64,000 bases of DNA, from NCBI RefSeq assembly GCF_018130065.1, contig NZ_JAFCME010000006.1, positions 186,001 through 250,000 on the forward strand, read 5' to 3'. How positions within the stretch are numbered: position 1 is the first letter of the stretch; every line of letters starts with the position of its first letter. The stretch is from Bradyrhizobium sp. AUGA SZCCT0158 (lineage in GTDB: Bacteria > Pseudomonadota > Alphaproteobacteria > Rhizobiales > Xanthobacteraceae). The position numbers were made by a program, and so were the translations under genes. The notes beneath the pieces are model-generated. The model worked only from the letters and a program-made list of their open reading frames with translations, did no database searches and had not been told where the DNA came from. This document shows positions 3,759 through 19,381 of this stretch, in pieces.

Positions 3759-4991
3759 TTAGCCCGCCAGCAGGCGCCGGCAGGCGTCGACAAACACTGC
3801 GGCGCCGGTGACGATGTCGGCGTCCGCCGTGTTCTCGGTCCAGTGATGGCTGATGCCGCCGATCGAGGGTACGAACAGCATGCCTGACGGCATGATGGTC
3901 GAGAGAATCTGGGCGTCGTGACCGGCGGCGCTGGGCATGCGGATCGACCTGCCACCGGCAAATGCCTTGCTCGCAGCTTCGATCGCTTGCTGAAACGAGG
4001 CGTCCATCATCGCGGGCGCGCCGGTGCGAATGCGCTCTACCGCAACCGTGCAGGGGCCGCGCGCGCTGACGTCGACGGCCATGCTTCGCAGCAAAGCCTC
4101 CAGGCGATCGATCACAGCGGGATCGTCGTCGCGAATCTGGAACAGCATTTCCGCAGATCCCGGGATGATGCTCGGCGCACCCGGATCGAGCGTGATCGAG
4201 CCGGTGGTCCAAACCGTGCGCGACCCGCAGGCTTTCGGAAACCGTTCGTCGATATCGACGCAGAATTTCGCCAGCGCGAGGCCAGCGTCCTTGCGCACGG
4301 CCATCCGCGTCGTGCCGGCGTGGTTTTGCTCGCCGGTGAAGGTGATCCGGTATTGCCAGATACCGACGATGGAGGTGACGACGCCGATATTGAGCGCACC
4401 GCCCTCGAGGGTCTGACCCTGTTCGATATGCGCCTCGAGATATCCGATGTGACGCCCGCGTTCGGCCGTGGCGCGCGGACGGCCGGCGAGGCCGACCCCG
4501 CGCAAGGCGTCGCGCATGCTGCGATCGCTGTTGCGGTCGCGCGCGGCGTCGACGTCAGCCTCGGTGAGCGCGCCGACATAGGAACGGCTGCCGAGGAAAC
4601 TGCCGAAATGGCCTTCCTCATCGCACCAGGATGCGACCTCGACGGCGCCCTTGATGTTCGGGTCGGAATTGATGACGCGGGCGGCTTCAAGCGCATAGAT
4701 GACGCCCAGCGGACCATCGAGCCAGCCCGCGTAATTCTGGCTTTCGAGATGCGAGCCCGCCAACAGCTTCGGCCCCGGTTTCGTGCTGGTGCCCAGCACG
4801 TTGCCGATGCCGTCGATCTCGGCGGCAAGGCCCGCCTCGGGAAGCCGCTGCACCAGCCATTCCAGCGAGCGCATATGCGGCTCCGAGAAGGTCGGCTTGT
4901 GGACACCGGTCTTGTAGGTGCCGATGCCACGCAGCGCATGAAGGTCTGCGAGGACGCGGGCGCCGTCGAAGGGCAGGGTCTTGTCGGGCAT
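3759..4991 (-). CDS. Zn-dependent hydrolase, allantoate amidohydrolase / N-carbamoyl-L-amino-acid hydrolase family
   Basis: The 410-aa M20-type enzyme family (AllC/HyuC/AmaB) cleaves C-N bonds in allantoate, ureidoglycine or N-carbamoyl amino acids using two metal ions. Visible metal motifs are GSHLESQ, GWLDGPLG, WCDEEGHF and the C-terminal GISHHWTEN; the dimerisation part contains TGEQNHAGTTRM. Note that the common GSHIDTV is replaced by GSHLESQ, so the substrate may differ from AllC. AAGGAG precedes the ATG at 4991 by about 8 nt. It lies 26 nt after the NTF2-like gene and is probably in the same operon. Confidence 0.85.
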   Translation of the reverse strand: MPDKTLPFDGARVLADLHALRGIGTYKTGVHKPTFSEPHMRSLEWLVQRLPEAGLAAEIDGIGNVLGTSTKPGPKLLAGSHLESQNYAGWLDGPLGVIYALEAARVINSDPNIKGAVEVASWCDEEGHFGSFLGSRSYVGALTEADVDAARDRNSDRSMRDALRGVGLAGRPRATAERGRHIGYLEAHIEQGQTLEGGALNIGVVTSIVGIWQYRITFTGEQNHAGTTRMAVRKDAGLALAKFCVDIDERFPKACGSRTVWTTGSITLDPGAPSIIPGSAEMLFQIRDDDPAVIDRLEALLRSMAVDVSARGPCTVAVERIRTGAPAMMDASFQQAIEAASKAFAGGRSIRMPSAAGHDAQILSTIMPSGMLFVPSIGGISHHWTENTADADIVTGAAVFVDACRRLLAG

Positions 4992-5017
4992 GGCTGGTGC
5001 CTCTCCTTGATTGGCCG

Positions 5018-5401
5018 TCAGGGGCCGGTCGGCTTGCGATAGACATCCTTGGTCGCGAGCCGTCCATCGCGAAACGTATAACACTCGACGCCGCGTTGTT
5101 CGCGCTGCTCGCCGGTGGCGCGCACGGTTTCGCTGACACGGAACGTCATGAAGGTCATATCACCGGCGTGATGATAGGCCACGTCATGGAAGCGTTGCGC
5201 CGAGAACAGGGCCTTTTGCTCGGCGAGATGTTCGGCAATGGCGGCGGCGCCGGCGAGGGATTTGGTCACCGCCAGACCGTCGTGAAAGGTCCAGAGAAAG
5301 TCAGGCGTCACTACGGAATAGAGCGCAACCATGTCGCCCTTGAACAGGGCGCGCGCGAAGCCTTTGAACAGCTCATCGCGTTCGGTGGAGGAGGGCGCCA
5401 T
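5018..5401 (-). CDS. Nuclear transport factor 2 (SnoaL-like) family protein
   Basis: The 127-aa cone-fold protein has the usual pattern: an N-terminal helix (ERDELFKGFARALFKGD), PDFLWTFHDG, and a C-terminal strand with FRDGRLATKDVYRKP. Such proteins are small-molecule isomerases, cyclases or binding proteins, so the substrate cannot be named. I prefer the ATG at 5401; an in-frame GTG at 5413 is nearly on top of the GGAG and is less likely. It is upstream of and probably co-transcribed with the amidohydrolase. Confidence 0.75.
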   Translation of the reverse strand: MAPSSTERDELFKGFARALFKGDMVALYSVVTPDFLWTFHDGLAVTKSLAGAAAIAEHLAEQKALFSAQRFHDVAYHHAGDMTFMTFRVSETVRATGEQREQRGVECYTFRDGRLATKDVYRKPTGP

Positions 5402-5675
5402 GATTTTATTCACGCTCCAACAATCCCTGGCTGAGAATGTGTACCGGCTGACAAACTTTTTTCGATCGCGTGCGGCAGCAGAGCGAACCGGTGCGCACGA
5501 GTCAAATCTCTAATATGTTGAGGCGGTTGTAACGCACCTGACGCGACGGATTGGTCCCACACGCGAGACATCGTTCAGAAGAATGTTTGCGTCGATCTCT
5601 TGACGGATTTTAAATCTTCTGCGCATACCAACGCCCCTTCGCCGGAATCCGCCGGCGCTCTAAAGGACCGAAGCC

Positions 5676-5828
5676 ATGTTGAGCCTGCGCTCACATATCG
5701 TCGCGAAAGCCGCCGCCGCGCTGCCGTTTATTCGGCCGTGCGATTGGTCGCGCATGTGCGTGGCGAAGCAAGGTCCGAGCTATCTGGCGCCCGAAAATCT
5801 CGGGACCACCAGGACGCCAAGAGCGTAA
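5676..5828 (+). CDS. Small hypothetical protein, 50 aa
   Basis: ATG at 5676 is preceded by AAAGGA at 9 nt and opens a 50-aa frame that begins MLSLRSHIVAKAAAALPF and ends TRTPRA. It has one short hydrophobic segment. I do not recognise the family. The same-strand small gene at 5874 follows 45 nt downstream. Confidence 0.45.
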   Translation: MLSLRSHIVAKAAAALPFIRPCDWSRMCVAKQGPSYLAPENLGTTRTPRA

Positions 5829-5873: not shown

Positions 5874-6068
5874 ATGACCCGCGACAGCACCACAGGACTC
5901 GAGGACCGTGACCGCCAGAGGATTTTGTCCTCGCCGGTGGCGCATGCCTTCGTGCGCATAGTGACGCAGCGCCGGGGCATTTCCGAGGCCGAGGCCGAGC
6001 AAGTCTATCTCGATTACATCAACCGAGCGCAGCCGGCGGACAACTGCCGGGGTCGTGAGGACGCTTGA
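5874..6068 (+). CDS. Small hypothetical helical protein, 64 aa
   Basis: The frame encodes an acidic, mostly helical protein with AHAFVRIVTQRRGISEAEAEQ at its centre. Codon use resembles the neighbours. It is the last protein-coding gene before the tRNA array. No function can be assigned. Confidence 0.55.
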   Translation: MTRDSTTGLEDRDRQRILSSPVAHAFVRIVTQRRGISEAEAEQVYLDYINRAQPADNCRGREDA

Positions 6069-6230
6069 TCATTTGAAGCGATTTCGAATTCAGGATGGCC
6101 GTCCCTGCAAGGACATAAGACGGCCCGCTGATCCGGTACTGGTCCCCTTTGGTGGGGCGGCAAACGGTGGTTTCAGGCAGCGAAACAATTTCCATTGGCC
6201 GGGATCGTCCGGCCGTTTGTAAGTTTTCAG

Positions 6231-6302
6231 GCTGGCGTAGCTCAGATGGAGAGCAGCGGTTTTGTAAACCGAAGCGCGGAGACTCGAGCCCTCCCGTCAG
6301 CA
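6231..6302 (+). tRNA. tRNA-Thr(TGT), first gene of the array
   Basis: Acceptor GCTGGCG pairs with CGTCAGC (one G-U), the D-arm is GCTC/GAGC, and the anticodon loop TTTGTAA gives UGU (Thr). The T-loop reads CTCGAGC rather than TTCGANT, the first anticodon-stem pair is G-A, and CCA is not encoded (ATCA follows the stem). It is divergent and may be partly decayed. Confidence 0.65.
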
Positions 6303-6334
6303 TCAATTGTCGAGTGTGATCTTCAATACGTAAA

Positions 6335-6419
6335 GCGAGCGTGGCGAAACTGGTAGACGCACCGCACTCAGACTGCGACGGGCTTGCCCGTGGGGGTTCA
6401 ATTCCCTCCGCTCGCACCA
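6335..6419 (+). tRNA. tRNA-Leu(CAG)
   Basis: Acceptor GCGAGCG/CGCTCGC, anticodon loop CTCAGAC giving CAG, long variable arm (GGGCTTGCCC) and T-loop TTCAATT. ACCA is encoded. A well-formed type II leucine tRNA. Confidence 0.93.
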
Positions 6420-6423
6420 TCAC

Positions 6424-6497
6424 GCTCCCGTAGCCAAGCGGTAAGGCATCGGTTTTACGCACCGACATACGCTCGTTCGATCCGAGCGGGGGCACCA
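6424..6497 (+). tRNA. tRNA-Val(TAC)
   Basis: Acceptor GCTCCCG/CGGGGGC, D-arm GCC/GGC with GG in the loop, stem TCGGT/ACCGA and loop TTTACGC giving anticodon UAC. The T-loop is TTCGATC and ACCA is encoded. It lies 4 nt after tRNA-Leu. Confidence 0.85.
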
Positions 6498-6501
6498 ACA
6501 T

Positions 6502-6574
6502 GCGCTTTTAGCTCAGTGGCAGAGTACCGCCGCGACATGGCTTGTCCGCGGTTCGATTCCGTGAAGGCGCACCA
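6502..6574 (+). tRNA. tRNA-Val(GAC)-like, divergent
   Basis: Acceptor GCGCTTT/AAGGCGC, D-arm GCTC/GAGT, T-loop TTCGATT and encoded ACCA are clear. The anticodon loop GCGACAT gives GAC, as in bacterial valine tRNAs (TTGACAT), but has C at position 33 instead of the near-universal U. Only three of five anticodon-stem pairs form and the variable region is 3 nt. It may be a decaying gene. Confidence 0.6.
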
Positions 6575-6580
6575 ATTCAC

Positions 6581-6654
6581 GCTCTTGTAGCACAATGGCA
6601 GTGCGACCGCTCGATAAGCGGTTGATGCAGGTTCGATTCCTGACTGGAGCACCA
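6581..6654 (+). tRNA. tRNA-Ile(GAT)
   Basis: Acceptor GCTCTTG/CTGGAGC has one T-T mismatch; D-arm GCAC/GTGC, anticodon stem ACCGC/GCGGT, loop TCGATAA giving GAU. Position 33 is C, not U. T-loop TTCGATT and ACCA are present. Confidence 0.75.
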
Positions 6655-6669
6655 CCAAGGGAGACCGAC

Positions 6670-6783
6670 ATGACCGTCGCTTTCACGACCTTGATGGAAC
6701 GCAGCGATGCCATCAAGGCACTTGCGAAACCGGGCGCGACTCGCCGCCACAAGCCATCGAGGCGATGGATCCGGAGCGTTAAA
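6670..6783 (+). other. Spacer with a possible short ORF running into tRNA-Lys
   Basis: The 112-nt gap 6655-6766 is the longest gap in the first part of the array without a tRNA. An ATG at 6670 preceded by GGGAG opens a frame (MTVAFTTLMERSDAIKALAK...) that continues into the tRNA-Lys gene, so it is more likely a remnant than a gene. No serine or cysteine tRNA could be folded here. Confidence 0.3.
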
Positions 6784-6849
6784 CCTGACTGGAGATGGAG
6801 CGGCCTTTTAAGCCGTGCGCAAGTGGTTCGAAACCACCCGGATCCTCCA
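6767..6849 (+). tRNA. tRNA-Lys(TTT) with enlarged D-arm
   Basis: Acceptor GGATCCG/CGGATCC is perfect, anticodon stem GCGGC/GCCGT and loop CTTTTAA give UUU. T-loop is TTCGAAA and TCCA is encoded (U73 is unusual for lysine). The segment between acceptor and anticodon stem is about 26 nt, six or seven longer than usual. Confidence 0.8.
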
Positions 6850-6854
6850 ATCAA

Positions 6855-6939
6855 GGACCAGTGCCCCAGCGGCCAAGGGAGCGGATTCTTAATCCGTCGA
6901 CGCAAGTCACCGTCGGTTCGAGTCCGACCTGGTCCTCCA
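6855..6939 (+). tRNA. Type II tRNA with anticodon CTT (Lys)
   Basis: Acceptor GGACCAG/CTGGTCC, T-arm GTCGG/CCGAC with loop TTCGAGT, TCCA encoded. The D-arm CCC-AGCGGCCAA-GGG resembles bacterial tRNA-Tyr, and a 14-nt variable arm (GAC-GCAA-GTC) makes it type II. The loop TTCTTAA gives anticodon CUU, which reads the Lys codon AAG; lysine tRNAs are normally type I. The aminoacylation identity is uncertain. Confidence 0.7.
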
Positions 6940-6975
6940 TTTCGAAACAGACTCTGGCCGAGCTCAGATAACTTT

Positions 6976-7058
6976 GCGGCCGTGGTGGAACGGTAGACAC
7001 CCGCGCTTGAGGGGCGCGCGCCATGTGCATCCGAGTTCGAGTCTCGGCGGCCGCACCA
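6976..7058 (+). tRNA. tRNA-Leu(GAG)
   Basis: Acceptor GCGGCCG/CGGCCGC, anticodon stem CGCGC/GCGCG with loop TTGAGGG (GAG), long variable region and T-loop TTCGAGT. ACCA is encoded. Confidence 0.92.
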
Positions 7059-7097
7059 TGTTGCAGACCTAGATTGCGCTCAATTTGCGCTCAAACT

Positions 7098-7172
7098 GCT
7101 CCTGGACCCAGCTGGTGAGGGGCTCGACTGTCGATCGAGTTGCGGCGAGTTCGATTCTCGTCAGGGGCGCCA
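7098..7172 (+). tRNA. tRNA-Asp(GTC)
   Basis: Acceptor GCTCCTG/CAGGGGC, D-stem CCC/GGG, anticodon stem CTCGA/TCGAG with loop CTGTCGA (GUC), T-loop TTCGATT, discriminator G73 as expected for aspartate, CCA encoded. It directly precedes the HNH gene. Confidence 0.88.
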
Positions 7173-7227
7173 CTGCGAATTCACATTGAAAGAATTCCGC
7201 CATCAGCATCAACGCGAGGAGGTTTTC

Positions 7228-7764
7228 ATGTTCCAGAATTGCTCCGCGCTCGTGCTCAACGCGGATTTCCAGCCGCTCAGCTATTTCCCACTCAGCCTGT
7301 TCGGCTGGGAAGACGCCATCAAGGCGGTCGTCAAGGGATCTCACGTCGTCGTCGCTGAATACGACGAGGTCGCCCGTAGCCCGTCGATCCAGATGAAGTT
7401 GCCATCGGTGATCGCGCTGCGCTGTTATGTGCGGCCGCCGAACCGGGTCGCCTTCACCCGGTTCAACGTGTTCCTTCGGGATCACTTCGTGTGCCAGTAT
7501 TGCAGCGTTCCGCACCGCCCGAACGATCTTACCTTCGACCATGTCCTGCCGCGCGCCGCCGGAGGCATGACGTCCTGGGAGAACATCGCAACGGCATGCA
7601 GCCCCTGCAATATGCGGAAAGACACACGGCTGGAGAAGCCCCGCCGGAAGCCGTTCGAGCCCACGGTGCATCAGCTGATGGCGGCGCAGCGCCATTTCCC
7701 GCCGAACTTCCTGCACGAGACCTGGCGCGACTTCCTGTACTGGGATGTCGAACTCGAGAAGTAA
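7228..7764 (+). CDS. HNH endonuclease inside the tRNA array
   Basis: The 178-aa protein has an N-terminal domain of about 90 residues (LVLNADFQPLSYFPLSLFGW...) and an HNH nuclease domain: CQYC (about residues 90-93), FDHVLPRAAGG with the metal-binding Asp-His, WENIATACSPCN and a second zinc CxxC. These are the residues of the free-standing bacterial HNH family. ATG at 7228 has AGGAGG 6 nt upstream, an excellent site that argues for expression. It sits between tRNA-Asp and tRNA-Tyr on the same strand. Possible roles are homing or mobility of the array, or a nuclease whose damage the tRNAs offset; the sequence does not decide. Confidence 0.93.
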   Translation: MFQNCSALVLNADFQPLSYFPLSLFGWEDAIKAVVKGSHVVVAEYDEVARSPSIQMKLPSVIALRCYVRPPNRVAFTRFNVFLRDHFVCQYCSVPHRPNDLTFDHVLPRAAGGMTSWENIATACSPCNMRKDTRLEKPRRKPFEPTVHQLMAAQRHFPPNFLHETWRDFLYWDVELEK

Positions 7765-7818
7765 GCCGCCGGCCACGGCCGGCGGTTTCGGTTCTGCGGC
7801 AGGCTTTCAAAACATTTC

Positions 7819-7903
7819 GGGTAACGCCAAGTCTGGTGACTGAGCGGGCCTGTAAAGCCTGCGCCTTTGCGCACGCGCGGTTCAATTCCGCGGTTACCCA
7901 CCA
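7819..7903 (+). tRNA. tRNA-Tyr(GTA)
   Basis: Acceptor GGGTAAC/GTTACCC, anticodon stem CGGGC/GCCTG with loop CTGTAAA (GUA), long variable arm, T-loop TTCAATT, ACCA encoded. Confidence 0.9.
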
Positions 7904-7937
7904 TCGTTCGGCAGATGCCCAACAGCCGTCCAAACCC

Positions 7938-8011
7938 GCGGACCTGGTATATTGGGAGTGCCATGCGCTGCCCGCGCATTGATAGCGGTTCGATCCCGCT
8001 GGTCCGCGCCA
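7938..8011 (+). tRNA. tRNA-Gly(GCC)
   Basis: Acceptor GCGGACC/GGTCCGC, anticodon stem ATGCG/CGCAT with loop CTGCCCG (GCC), T-arm AGCGG/CCGCT with loop TTCGATC, GCCA encoded. Discriminator G is unusual for bacterial glycine tRNA, which normally has U73. Confidence 0.88.
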
Positions 8012-8044
8012 TCTTGCGAAACTGCGCGCGTCGCGCAATTCGCC

Positions 8045-8120
8045 GTCCAGAAAGCTAATCCAGTGAAAGCATCGGCTTGAAACGCCGGGGAGGTCAGGGC
8101 GGCACTGACTCTGGACACCA
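8045..8120 (+). tRNA. tRNA-Phe(GAA) with GGCGGCA T-loop
   Basis: The 76-nt gene has a perfect acceptor GTCCAGA/TCTGGAC, D-stem GCT/AGC, anticodon stem TCGGC/GCCGG with loop TTGAAAC (GAA), T-stem GTCAG/CTGAC and encoded ACCA. The T-loop is GGCGGCA in place of TTCGANT, and the 11-nt D-loop AATCCAGTGAA lacks the GG pair that normally docks with the T-loop. All helices are intact, so this is not random decay. Confidence 0.8.
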
Positions 8121-8124
8121 TCAC

Positions 8125-8194
8125 GGGGGTGCACAAGGTGCATTTGATCCTTGCAAGATCGAAGCGGCCGGGGCGGTACCGGCACTCTCCACCA
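8125..8194 (+). tRNA. tRNA-Ala(TGC)-like with GGCGGTA T-loop, divergent
   Basis: The anticodon stem TGATC/GATCG with loop CTTGCAA gives UGC (Ala). T-stem GCCGG/CCGGC carries loop GGCGGTA. The acceptor GGGGGTG pairs with CACTCTCC if one T is bulged, keeping the G3:U70 pair and A73 that identify alanine tRNAs; CCA is encoded. The D-arm is very short and cannot form together with all five anticodon-stem pairs. It begins 5 nt after tRNA-Phe. Confidence 0.6.
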
Positions 8195-8200
8195 TCTCAT

Positions 8201-8276
8201 TCCCGTCGAGCCATCTCGGTGAGGGCACCCGGCTGTTAACCGGGGTAGCGCGGTTCGAAACCGTGGTCGGGAGCCA
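8201..8276 (+). tRNA. tRNA-Asn(GTT)
   Basis: Acceptor TCCCGTC/GTCGGGA with one mismatch, D-arm GCC/GGC with GG in the loop, anticodon stem CCCGG/CCGGG with loop CTGTTAA (GUU), T-loop TTCGAAA, G73 and CCA encoded. Confidence 0.9.
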
Positions 8277-8304
8277 ATGCCGCTTGTCAGCCGATTACCA
8301 TCAA

Positions 8305-8383
8305 CGACCTGTAGCTCAGTTGGATTCAGAGCGCCGTGCTACGAACGCGGAGGGCGGGGGTTCGAGTCCCTCCAGGTCGGCCA
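8305..8383 (+). tRNA. tRNA-Arg(ACG)
   Basis: Acceptor CGACCTG/CAGGTCG, D-stem GCTC/GAGC, anticodon stem CCGTG/CGCGG with loop CTACGAA (ACG), T-loop TTCGAGT, GCCA encoded. An ACG anticodon needs deamination of A34 by TadA to read all CGN codons it serves. Confidence 0.92.
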
Positions 8384-8390
8384 AAATTGA

Positions 8391-8469
8391 CAGTCTGTAG
8401 GGGAGCCTGGTCGTCCCTACCTGCCTTGGAAGCAGGGGATCGCTGGTTCGAATCCAGCCAGACTGACCA
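8391..8469 (+). tRNA. tRNA-Pro(TGG)
   Basis: Acceptor CAGTCTG/CAGACTG, anticodon stem CCTGC/GCAGG with loop CTTGGAA (UGG), T-loop TTCGAAT, ACCA encoded. It is unlike the ordinary tRNA-Pro(TGG) at 19305, which begins CGGGGTA. Confidence 0.9.
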
Positions 8470-8515
8470 CAATCGATTCAAAGACAAAGCGGGACGCTCG
8501 CGCCTCGCCAGCCTT

Positions 8516-8590
8516 TGCCTCTTGGCTCGGTCGGTAGAGCGCCCGGTTCTGATTCGGGATATCAGCGGTTCAATCCGCGAGGGGCTGCCA
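8516..8590 (+). tRNA. tRNA-Gln(CTG)
   Basis: The anticodon stem CCCGG/TCGGG with loop TTCTGAT gives CUG. T1 does not pair and G73 is present, as in glutamine tRNAs with a weak first pair; CCA is encoded. The T-loop is one nucleotide short (TTCAAT). Confidence 0.8.
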
Positions 8591-8592
8591 AT

Positions 8593-8666
8593 GCGGGCTT
8601 AGGTCATAGGCTGATCACCTGGTTTCCAGCCAGGCAAAGTCGGTTCGAGTCCGGCAGCCCGCGCCA
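8593..8666 (+). tRNA. tRNA-Gly(TCC)
   Basis: Acceptor GCGGGCT/AGCCCGC, anticodon stem CCTGG/CCAGG with loop TTTCCAG (UCC), T-loop TTCGAGT, GCCA encoded. Two nucleotides separate it from tRNA-Gln. Confidence 0.9.
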
Positions 8667-8667
8667 A

Positions 8668-8979
8668 TCACAAGTCAGCTACCTTCCTGGCTGCCGCGAG
8701 GCTGTCCTTGATACTATTCGAGTTGAGGATCCCATCTTCGAATGCGATTCGCGCTGCGGTGAGCCTTCGGTTCAGTTGCAGCTTGGGTCCGGCTCCAAAT
8801 AGCCGGTCGATCTCCGAGTTTATCTCGAGCATTTGCGCGGCGGCTTCATGGGCGACACCAAGCTCATCAAGCCGTGCAGCGACCGACATTTCCCGTTGCG
8901 TTAGCGGCCGTTTCTTTGCCGATTTCGGTTTCCACTTTTTCGCGATCGCCCTTTTGGTCTTCTTCGCTTTCTTTATCAC
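8668..8979 (-). CDS. Lysine-rich hypothetical protein antisense to the array
   Basis: The 103-aa frame has a very basic N-terminus (KKAKKTKRAIAKKWKPKSAKK) followed by a helical, more acidic region ending AAARKVADL. The start would be GTG at 8979, with GGGAG in the complement of the tRNA-Glu gene upstream. It fills the only long tRNA-free gap in the second half of the array and is the only gene on the minus strand there. No family is recognised; a nucleic-acid-binding role is only a guess from the charge. Confidence 0.55.
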   Translation of the reverse strand: MIKKAKKTKRAIAKKWKPKSAKKRPLTQREMSVAARLDELGVAHEAAAQMLEINSEIDRLFGAGPKLQLNRRLTAARIAFEDGILNSNSIKDSLAAARKVADL

Positions 8980-8986
8980 CGTAGCC

Positions 8987-9063
8987 GCTCCCTTCGTCTG
9001 GCGGTCCAGGATAACACCCTTTCACGGTGAAGATCACCGGTTCGAATCCGGTAGGGAGCGCCA
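8987..9063 (+). tRNA. tRNA-Glu(TTC), array copy
   Basis: Acceptor GCTCCCT/AGGGAGC, loop CTTTCAC giving UUC, T-loop TTCGAAT, GCCA encoded. It shares the acceptor and anticodon arm with the ordinary tRNA-Glu at 9493-9567 but differs in the D-arm, variable region and T-arm. Confidence 0.9.
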
Positions 9064-9146
9064 TTGCGGGCGCGTCGCCAAGTTGGCCTAAGGCGCCGGA
9101 TTTTGATTTCCGGTGACCGCTGGTTCGAATCCAGCCCCGCTCACCA
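9064..9146 (+). tRNA. tRNA-Gln(TTG)-like with 8-nt anticodon loop
   Basis: T-arm GCTGG/CCAGC with loop TTCGAAT and encoded ACCA are clear; D-arm GCC/GGC. The anticodon stem CCGGA/TCCGG encloses eight nucleotides, TTTTGATT, one more than normal, with UUG (Gln) in the usual place. The acceptor pairs only in its inner five positions (TTGCGGG with CCCGCTC), and two extra nucleotides precede the D-stem. It may be degenerate or able to shift frame. Confidence 0.55.
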
Positions 9147-9153
9147 AATCCAT

Positions 9154-9225
9154 CGCTCGGCCTCTCGGGAGGGTTTGCTGCTCATAACGGCGAACAGGAC
9201 GGTTCGAAACCGTTACGAGCGACCA
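9154..9225 (+). tRNA. tRNA-Met/Ile2(CAT)
   Basis: Acceptor CGCTCGG/ACGAGCG (six pairs), anticodon stem TGCTG/CGGCG with loop CTCATAA (CAU), T-loop TTCGAAA, ACCA encoded. Whether it is an elongator methionine, initiator, or lysidine-modified isoleucine tRNA cannot be told here. Confidence 0.82.
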
Positions 9226-9231
9226 CCTGCT

Positions 9232-9306
9232 TCCGACCTCGTCTATCAGCTAGGACGCTTGCTTGTGGAGCAGGAAAACACGCGGCGGCACCGTGGGTCG
9301 GGACCA
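9232..9306 (+). tRNA. tRNA-His(GTG) with GGCGGCA T-loop
   Basis: Acceptor TCCGACC/GGTCGGG, D-stem GTC/GAC, anticodon stem CTTGC/GCAGG with loop TTGTGGA (GUG), ACCA encoded. T-stem CACGC/CCGTG (innermost pair C-C) bears the loop GGCGGCA, as in the tRNA-Phe of this array, and the D-loop TATCAGCTAG lacks adjacent GG. Confidence 0.75.
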
Positions 9307-9311
9307 CTTCA

Positions 9312-9387
9312 GGGAGTGAAGCTCAAGTGGACGAGCGCTGGTCTCCAAAACCAGAGGTTCCAGGTTCGAGGCCTGGTTCTCCCGCCA
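9312..9387 (+). tRNA. tRNA-Trp(CCA), last gene of the array
   Basis: Acceptor GGGAGTG/TTCTCCC, D-stem GCTC/GAGC, anticodon stem CTGGT/ACCAG with loop CTCCAAA (CCA), T-loop TTCGAGG, G73 and CCA encoded. Confidence 0.9.
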
Positions 9388-9492: not shown

Positions 9493-9567
9493 TGGCGCTC
9501 CCTAGCGGAATCGAACCGCTCTCTCCACCGTGAAAGGGTGGCGTCCTAACCGATAGACGAAGGGAGC
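9493..9567 (-). tRNA. tRNA-Glu(TTC), ordinary chromosomal-type gene
   Basis: On the minus strand GCTCCCT/AGGGAGC, loop CTTTCAC (UUC), T-loop TTCGATT and GCCA. All arms are canonical. Its 3' end faces the tRNA array, about 105 nt away, the place where integrative elements usually insert. Confidence 0.95.
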
Positions 9568-19304: not shown

Positions 19305-19381
19305 CGGGGTATAGCGCAGCCTGGTAGCGCGGCAGTTTTGGGTACTGCAGGTCGTTGGTTCGAATCCAGCTGCCCCGACCA
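19305..19381 (+). tRNA. tRNA-Pro(TGG), ordinary chromosomal type
   Basis: Acceptor CGGGGTA/TGCCCCG, D-arm GCGC/GCGC, loop TTTTGGGT giving UGG, T-loop TTCGAAT, ACCA encoded. Confidence 0.96.

Follow-up and report, generated by a model that had tools for sequence, protein, structure and literature searches.

A phage-type tRNA-array operon with an HNH gene and a structured leader in a Bradyrhizobium chromosome

Introduction

Why would a chromosome that already holds an ordinary tRNA set carry a second, densely packed one? The question is raised by a tRNA array in Bradyrhizobium sp. AUGA SZCCT0158 (assembly GCF_018130065.1; genome 7.35 Mb, 67 contigs). The stretch analysed, called the window throughout, comprised 64,000 nucleotides (nt) of contig NZ_JAFCME010000006.1 (positions 186,001 to 250,000; G000:C56:186001-250000 in our numbering), and the array lies at 6231-9387 of it. 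Our preferred answer, held at a probability of roughly one half, is that the array belongs to a phage-type operon which was retained in the chromosome after the inferred loss of its prophage and which serves as a back-up tRNA set.

tRNA arrays with HNH genes are already a known kind. As defined in PMC5966550, a tRNA array unit has at least 20 tRNA genes at a density of at least 2 per kb, with an HNH gene common but optional. Such units are described there, and in PMC12803027, from Mycobacterium chromosomes, plasmids and phages.

Composition of the array

ARAGORN called 18 tRNAs, all on the plus strand, within 3.16 kb at 6231-9387. Upstream of an embedded HNH gene are Thr(UGU) (6231-6305), Leu(CAG) (6335-6419), Val(UAC) (6423-6497), Val(GAC) with C33 (6502-6574), Ile(GAU) with C33 (6581-6654), Lys(CUU) with a long base-paired variable arm and U73 (6855-6939), Leu(GAG) (6976-7058) and Asp(GUC) (7098-7172). 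Downstream are Tyr(GUA) (7819-7903), Gly(GCC) with G73 (7938-8011), Asn(GUU) (8201-8276), Arg(ACG) (8305-8383), Pro(UGG) (8391-8469), Gln(CUG) (8516-8590), Gly(UCC) with G73 (8593-8666), Glu(UUC) (8987-9063), Gln(UUG) (9068-9146) and Trp(CCA) (9312-9387). Both the density and the embedded HNH gene are those of a tRNA array unit.

The Rfam tRNA gathering score of 29 bits was reached by 18 members (35.8-60 bits), including Asn and a Phe-like gene at 8045-8120 (37.9 bits) that ARAGORN did not call; for Tyr the sole Rfam match was tRNA-Sec, under the cut-off. Four further plus-strand genes were called by neither program but are conserved in relatives. These were Lys(UUU)-like (6766-6851, with the 5' end set by eye; over the 67 nt at 6785-6851, three relatives each differ at 1-2 positions), Ala-like (8121-8195), Met/Ile2-like (CAU) (9153-9226) and His-like (GUG) (9228-9303). 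Taken jointly, the Lys(UUU), Phe, Ala, Met/Ile2 and His genes diverged from three close relatives by 3.3-4.1%, compared with 9.8-12.6% for the spacers. Because these five atypical genes diverge as tRNAs do and not as the spacers do, a count of 23 is reasonable when they are included; the count is 18 by ARAGORN and 19 with Rfam added.

A first-pass annotation, made without database searches, had described a dense same-strand array of 23 tRNA or tRNA-like genes without Ser or Cys, nearly all encoding CCA and most differing from ordinary chromosomal tRNAs. This description was borne out. No Ser or Cys tRNA was called in the window array; CCA is encoded by nearly all members, with Thr ending in TCA through a private C>T at 6303; and the tRNAs are 48-81% alike to their host cognates (16 compared). 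By Rfam, 18 of the 23 members reach the gathering score, which goes against the pseudogene scores in most members that the annotation had named as a refutation. Its array extent was incomplete. The HNH gene lies inside, and the whole unit begins near 5600, not 6231, with a promoter-like motif, two small open reading frames (ORFs) and an RNA element, followed by the tRNAs with the HNH gene among them.

The host genome holds its ordinary tRNA set elsewhere, and the array anticodons duplicate host anticodons; for Ile-GAU and Ala-UGC the assembly has no host copy, and 16S rRNA is missing from it too. Outside the array, ARAGORN called two ordinary tRNAs in the window, Glu at 9493-9567 (minus strand) and Pro at 19305. 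In 23 other genomes of the genus, 4-20 tRNAs in similar order lie within 1.5 kb of a related HNH gene, so the window array is not a chance assembly.

A second, broken array was observed in the same genome (L162, G000:C46:2026-15621). Its eight tRNAs are scattered over 13.6 kb, interspersed with radical-SAM, metallo-hydrolase and other genes. Of an array-type HNH it retains just the N-terminal 30 residues, and it has no leader element.

Carriage by prophages

Five relatives of the HNH protein in IMG/VR are close (73-77% identity); their records measure 46-132 kb, and two belong to the named Bradyrhizobium genomes C9 and Ai1a-2. Record G104 (121 kb) encodes DnaB, portal, head protease, tail tube, tape measure and tail-tip proteins and has 30 tRNAs near one end. 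The portal and HNH genes are separated by 35-42 kb in G100, G101/G204, G102/G189, G104 and G137; no portal match was found in G103, a 46-kb fragment. The prophage arrays contain 29-31 tRNAs by ARAGORN, Ser and Cys among them. An integrative and conjugative element was rejected as carrier, with VirB4 (PF03135) found in none of the five records and phage genes present in G104. Inside the G104 array lies a gene for an 823-residue AAA ATPase (phrog_14719, L192:13044-15515).

The mobile origin proposed in the first-pass annotation is thus supported indirectly, by homologous arrays in prophages, but not by the neighbourhood of the window copy in a limited test: no phage genes were found beside it, and G104 proteins matched just the HNH gene and one site at 48 kb in the window. 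PHROGs searches of ten window ORFs returned an integrase at 44 kb. This tyrosine integrase (window:44462-45424) is 35 kb from the array and probably belongs to another island. No PF04860 portal was found in the window genome, nor in seven array genomes of one or two contigs (G272, G047, G294, G178, G217, G175, G205), a negative that covers this portal family only.

Retention at chromosomal sites

Chromosomal arrays share their flanks within four groups, namely G000 (the window genome), G012, G230, G231 and G232; G001, G175, G217 and G024; G042, G049 and G205; and G178, G294 and G033. As flanks are common within groups of five, four, three and three genomes, the copies kept their positions through speciation.

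The window group sits on the 3' side of tRNA-Glu(UUC), an ordinary chromosomal gene outside the operon (9493-9567, minus strand), whose 3' end faces the array. In six other genomes of the genus (L174-L179) this tRNA-Glu has no array, and synteny is found further out on both sides. The array abuts tRNA-Glu in G000 and G232. In G012 they are separated by an element resembling a phage satellite, with genes for integrase, VapE and capsid (L164:7410-8723, 4188-5399 and 1363-2454), which used tRNA-Glu as integration site and duplicated approximately 47 bp of its end. In G231 the intervening DNA is approximately 12 kb of other sequence, and in G230 it is approximately 52 kb that includes, besides other genes, a prophage with terminase, portal and capsid (L257-L259, G230:C25:217-269 kb). 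In neither G231 nor G230 was the tRNA-Glu end found repeated beside the array, and left of the array no attachment repeat was found in the window except the array's own tRNA-Glu. Since different elements lie there across relatives, tRNA-Glu is an integration hot spot. The G230 layout is compatible with a prophage that has the array at its distal end, as G101 and G104 do; it was not counted as proof of a carrier because its portal is just 28% like that of G101/G104.

Also next to tRNA-Glu in G012 are metallophosphatase, GASH, double-GTPase and GAP1 genes (L180:3793-10008), perhaps a defence cluster.

Leader of the operon

Flank comparison showed that approximately 650 nt directly before the first tRNA are common to arrays at different sites. 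Twenty-six arrays were aligned (alignment A2). A promoter-like pair, TTGACG-N17-GCATA (5600-5627, plus strand; the 17-nt spacing is that of the window), is invariant in 26/26. A generic sigma-70 scan counted no promoter at the pair, which is therefore described as a conserved motif and not as a proven promoter. ORF1 (5676-5828, plus strand; 50 amino acids) and ORF2 (5874-6068, plus strand; 64 amino acids) are open in all 26 arrays, with lengths of 48-52 and 61-67 amino acids. The median ratio of nonsynonymous to synonymous substitution rates (dN/dS) was 0.89 for ORF1, so little protein-level constraint is shown, and 0.55 for ORF2. Neither ORF1 nor the window ORF2 had a Pfam or PHROG match.

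A structured RNA element follows at 6091-6220 (plus strand) and ends 11 nt before the first tRNA. It comprises 130 nt and 35 pairs, with 99.4% of alignment cells paired and 10 pairs changed on both sides; the structure was derived from the same alignment on which it was tested, which favours this result. None of 500 shuffles reached the observed paired cells, double-sided changes or covariation score, and 142/500 reached the number of pair types. Slid structures dropped to 30-57% paired. Against Rfam, up to E=10, the sole match was a chance one on the other strand, and neither GOLLD, ROOL nor another family was matched.

A covariance model (R1) was built partly from the window element, which it scores at 146.9 bits. 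Run on 265 genomes of the genus, it found the element in 26. One of the 26 aligned rows, NAS80.1, is without most of the element and scored 17 bits. Among genomes with an array-type HNH gene, the element is present in 24/25 of the tRNA-bearing kind and in 0/10 of a second kind, named here after BTAi1. In G122 and G260 it was found with no array-type HNH detected nearby, yet same-strand tRNAs (10 and 2) lie downstream, which is an out-of-sample success for R1. The next ARAGORN tRNA begins 9-14 nt after the element in 14 of 24 loci and 48-2501 nt after it in nine; in one locus there is none. In a class sample of 385 genomes the element was found in the window strain's own genome and, outside the genus, as one weak match without tRNAs (G619), which was taken as chance. 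A second, weak copy in G001 has ORF2 and no tRNAs.

HNH endonuclease gene

The HNH gene (7228-7764, plus strand; 178 amino acids; PF14279, PF01844) weakly matched models of PtuB and of restriction HNH proteins, the matches being confined to the HNH core, and its match to solved structures was likewise restricted to the core. Its nearest named relatives are from Bradyrhizobium. Array-type HNH genes were found in 35 genomes of the genus at 72-100% identity, with other listed rows at 61% or less; 25 of these genomes are of the tRNA-bearing kind and ten of the BTAi1 kind. A tree groups the array-type HNHs of the genus, 35 rows, into a single set (support 100/100), inside which is the window set of seven rows from six genomes. 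The ordinary HNH genes in this tree were from other Alphaproteobacteria, not Bradyrhizobium, and the deep HNH branches are unsure. dN/dS was 0.04-0.14 in six pairs of four close relatives; for the BTAi1 kind, six pairs formed from four genes gave 0.06-0.10.

The gene could instead be a selfish homing unit that spreads itself, with the tRNAs as landing ground or passengers. In Bradyrhizobium arrays that have it, it sits between the Asp/Pro/Met and Arg-CCG genes. Its IMG/VR relatives have at least three tRNAs nearby in 14/16 viral loci, 5/14 sampled phage and plasmid relatives have at least three within 4 kb, and SegB offers a precedent (PMC13096335). With just 5/14 in that sample, the HNH was rejected as a universal companion of tRNA arrays. 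We regard homing as an improbable explanation of the whole: the low dN/dS at long-held chromosomal sites is unlike the expectation for a homing gene once it is fixed, conservation extends to the tRNAs as well, and G122 and G260 retain leader and tRNAs with no HNH detected nearby.

Selection on the operon

Across ten array pairs the tRNAs differ by 0.3-7.9% and the spacers by 6.7-42%; the HNH columns of pair G001-G217 were left out (misaligned, 0.508). Broadly, tRNA divergence of about 2-3% goes with spacer divergence of 7-13%. On the window branch, 11 private substitutions were counted in 1547 tRNA columns and 38 in 614 spacer columns. The tRNAs, leader RNA and HNH are under purifying selection, and ORF2 more weakly.

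Within the array a small ORF of 103 amino acids (8668-8979, minus strand) lies amid the tRNAs. It is open in four relatives with dN/dS of 0.19-0.48, and had no family match.

Structure and predicted charging of the tRNAs

The array tRNAs look chargeable. Discriminator bases equalled those of the host cognate in 247/294 tRNAs over 19 arrays (shuffled mean 133, maximum 158), a count which omits tRNAs without encoded CCA. The initiator-type C1xA72 is kept in array tRNA-Met and G3:U70 is kept in Ala, the latter by eye.

The array tRNA-Lys is unusual. In 15/17 distinct sequences it has a long variable arm, with lengths of 84-94 nt; that of G101 has 76 nt, as does host tRNA-Lys. Every counted cloverleaf pair, variable stem included, is kept in nine CUU-type sequences. 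Paired swaps were seen between A-U and G-C in the variable stem and between U-A and A-U in the acceptor, modest evidence from two pairs; 2/500 shuffles reached the covariation score and 192/500 the number of such pairs.

Two other departures from host tRNAs were observed. tRNA-Leu of 76-79 nt with a short variable loop occurs in arrays of G047, G033, G001, G024, L070 and L077 (host 85-87 nt), and in the G230 array (L069:7093-7168) the tRNA in Trp position has anticodon TCA and would read UGA stops.

The first-pass annotation had also suggested a fit to the codon use of a mobile element, and tRNA genes are indeed carried by large phages. In two prophages, codon use is the same as in the host (r 0.985 and 0.983; GC content at third codon positions 0.767 and 0.772 against 0.765), and the window anticodons duplicate the host's, bar Ile-GAU and Ala-UGC. 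Codon compensation for a phage or element is disfavoured by these values and is hardly credible.

Evidence for decay and for altered function

Several observations weigh against a retained, working back-up set. The first is damage in the window strain. Seven private small indels fall in six of its tRNA genes: single-nucleotide deletions in Val(UAC), Lys(CUU) and Asp, a 2-nt deletion in the anticodon stem of Val(GAC), two 1-nt deletions in Ala and a 1-nt insertion in Gln(UUG). Nine indels were seen in tRNA columns, of which one past the Ile gene and one at Gln(CUG), a gene absent in two relatives, were dropped. Sequencing or assembly error is unlikely, because neither 2.1 kb of flanking coding sequence in any of four relatives nor the window HNH has a private indel. 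The insertion in Gln(UUG) gives an 8-nt anticodon loop; as it is private to the window, a quadruplet anticodon was rejected. On this loop the first-pass reading is amended, and its near-complete second set is a fair description of the prophage arrays, less so of the window array with its six indel-bearing genes.

Indels were also counted outside the tRNA genes. The array spacers have 20 private events in the window and 9, 5 and 11 in the others, and the non-coding flank has 2 in the window and 5, 15 and 2 in the others. Over window:6150-9480 the array (tRNAs and spacers) has more small indels than in three relatives.

The array in this strain may therefore be a dead or dying relic in which the HNH and small ORFs alone are still used, which we consider possible but doubtful. 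The private indels, the mutated Thr CCA and the absence of Arg-CCG, present in three relatives, fit this, as does the wrecked state of the second array (eight tRNAs in 13.6 kb, an HNH fragment), and the BTAi1 kind is a possible end point. Relatives have lost genes as well: G012 has no private tRNA indels but lacks Gln(CUG), L066 has lost Gln(UUG) and part of Glu, and L067 has lost Gln(CUG) and Gly(UCC). Against a relic, private substitutions in the tRNAs are few, the leader, ORFs and HNH are intact, and 12/18 ARAGORN tRNAs are free of private indels and of CCA loss. In the window copy, several freshly damaged tRNAs thus accompany a leader and HNH that are intact.

The BTAi1 kind is the second point, keeping ORF2 and HNH without the tRNAs and RNA element. 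ORF2 is present in 10/10 of these loci (L076, L078, L079 and L080 among them) and ORF1 in 7/10, some being one genome twice; 0-2 tRNAs lie within 1.5 kb in 6/6 of those fetched (30/35 loci were fetched over both kinds). Since ORF2 and HNH survive there without tRNAs, part of the selection is for proteins.

The third point concerns the tRNAs themselves. The host discriminator is kept in only 1/20 Gly and 7/17 Lys. Among 287 anticodon loops compared, 118 are as in the host and 169 differ (position 32 in 119, position 38 in 113), and the window Thr, Tyr, Asn, Arg, Glu and Trp carry the host loop. Change in the loop beyond that in the rest of the tRNA was not found among the 287, so there is no specific mark of evasion. 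A base other than U33 occurs in 17/305 distinct array tRNAs against 0/44 host tRNAs, which is not significant (p 0.14); the loop and U33 comparisons exclude duplicates, loops of any length other than 7 nt, calls that lack an isotype, and three aberrant host calls. Odd tRNA bodies, the 118/287 loops shared with the host and foreign discriminators in Lys and Gly would suit decoys, uncharged look-alikes that soak up a nuclease. Discriminators are kept in most isotypes, as are the Met and Ala identity features described above, and decoys seem very unlikely.

Finally, that the array's own prophage once occupied the tRNA-Glu site is at most a presumption, and tRNA-Glu takes unrelated elements too.

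Function and mechanism

With the array redundant to the host set and codon use equal, back-up is the simplest use, and a putative back-up against tRNA-cleaving defence is perhaps the best functional reading. The leader would drive one transcript to be cut into tRNAs, which host synthetases would charge. These tRNAs may substitute for host tRNAs that have been depleted, the likeliest cause being toxins or immunity systems that cleave tRNA. The HNH probably acts on DNA as a free-standing endonuclease, helping the unit to recombine and spread in the manner of SegB.

A more elaborate form, a domesticated, stress-gated second tRNA set, is conceivable but rather unlikely. Here the leader would be an attenuator admitting RNA polymerase when host tRNAs fail, and the tRNAs would be re-engineered so that nucleases do not recognise them. 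The attenuator would consist of ORF2 and, starting 22 nt after it, the covarying RNA element, whose last hairpin in most intact arrays stops 9-14 nt short of the first tRNA. Candidates for the re-engineered tRNAs would be the long-armed tRNA-Lys and tRNA-Gly without U73.

Relation to known systems and significance

To our knowledge, no function has been proven for chromosomal tRNA arrays of bacteria. ICEAfe1 of Acidithiobacillus is a mobile element with a near-complete tRNA array; the Bradyrhizobium carriers differ in having no VirB4 (PF03135, five records) and in the phage genes of G104. ROOL RNAs are several hundred nt in size. GOLLD and ROOL resemble the leader element as structured RNAs of phages and prophages, often near tRNA islands, but GOLLD often exceeds 800 nt, against 130 nt for the element, which matches no Rfam model on its own strand (PMC12286853 for GOLLD and ROOL).

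The Mycobacterium units share with the Bradyrhizobium arrays dense, near-complete, host-redundant and divergent tRNA clusters, an embedded HNH and mobile carriers; they differ in phylum and in their distant HNH. The Bradyrhizobium arrays are distinguished by prophage-borne copies alongside vertically kept chromosomal ones, and by a shared leader with two ORFs and an RNA element. The Mycobacterium arrays are called putative antidefence in PMC12803027, and recent papers give the role of tRNA arrays as unknown or putative antidefence. Phage tRNAs are known to bypass tRNA-cleaving defence (PMC12409363, PMC13096335), and PMC10264068 proposes it. The Bradyrhizobium arrays resemble those tRNAs and T-even SegB in having a tRNA set near a free-standing endonuclease and in the putative replacement of cleaved host tRNAs; they differ in that no enrichment of anticodon-loop change was found.

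Among the matches listed, no paper on Bradyrhizobium tRNA arrays and none on long-armed tRNA-Lys was found, although the wide survey of arrays by Tran et al., cited in PMC5966550, may include some Bradyrhizobium arrays. As far as these searches go, the array family in Bradyrhizobium, its vertical retention, the shared leader with its RNA element and the long-armed tRNA-Lys are new.

The genus offers a natural experiment: prophages carry the operon, some chromosomes have it with well-preserved tRNAs, one has it with breaking tRNAs, and others keep ORF2 and HNH but no tRNAs. The common leader with a foldable RNA element gives a handle on when the arrays are expressed, and the long-armed tRNA-Lys genes offer a test of what lysyl-tRNA synthetase and tRNA nucleases accept.

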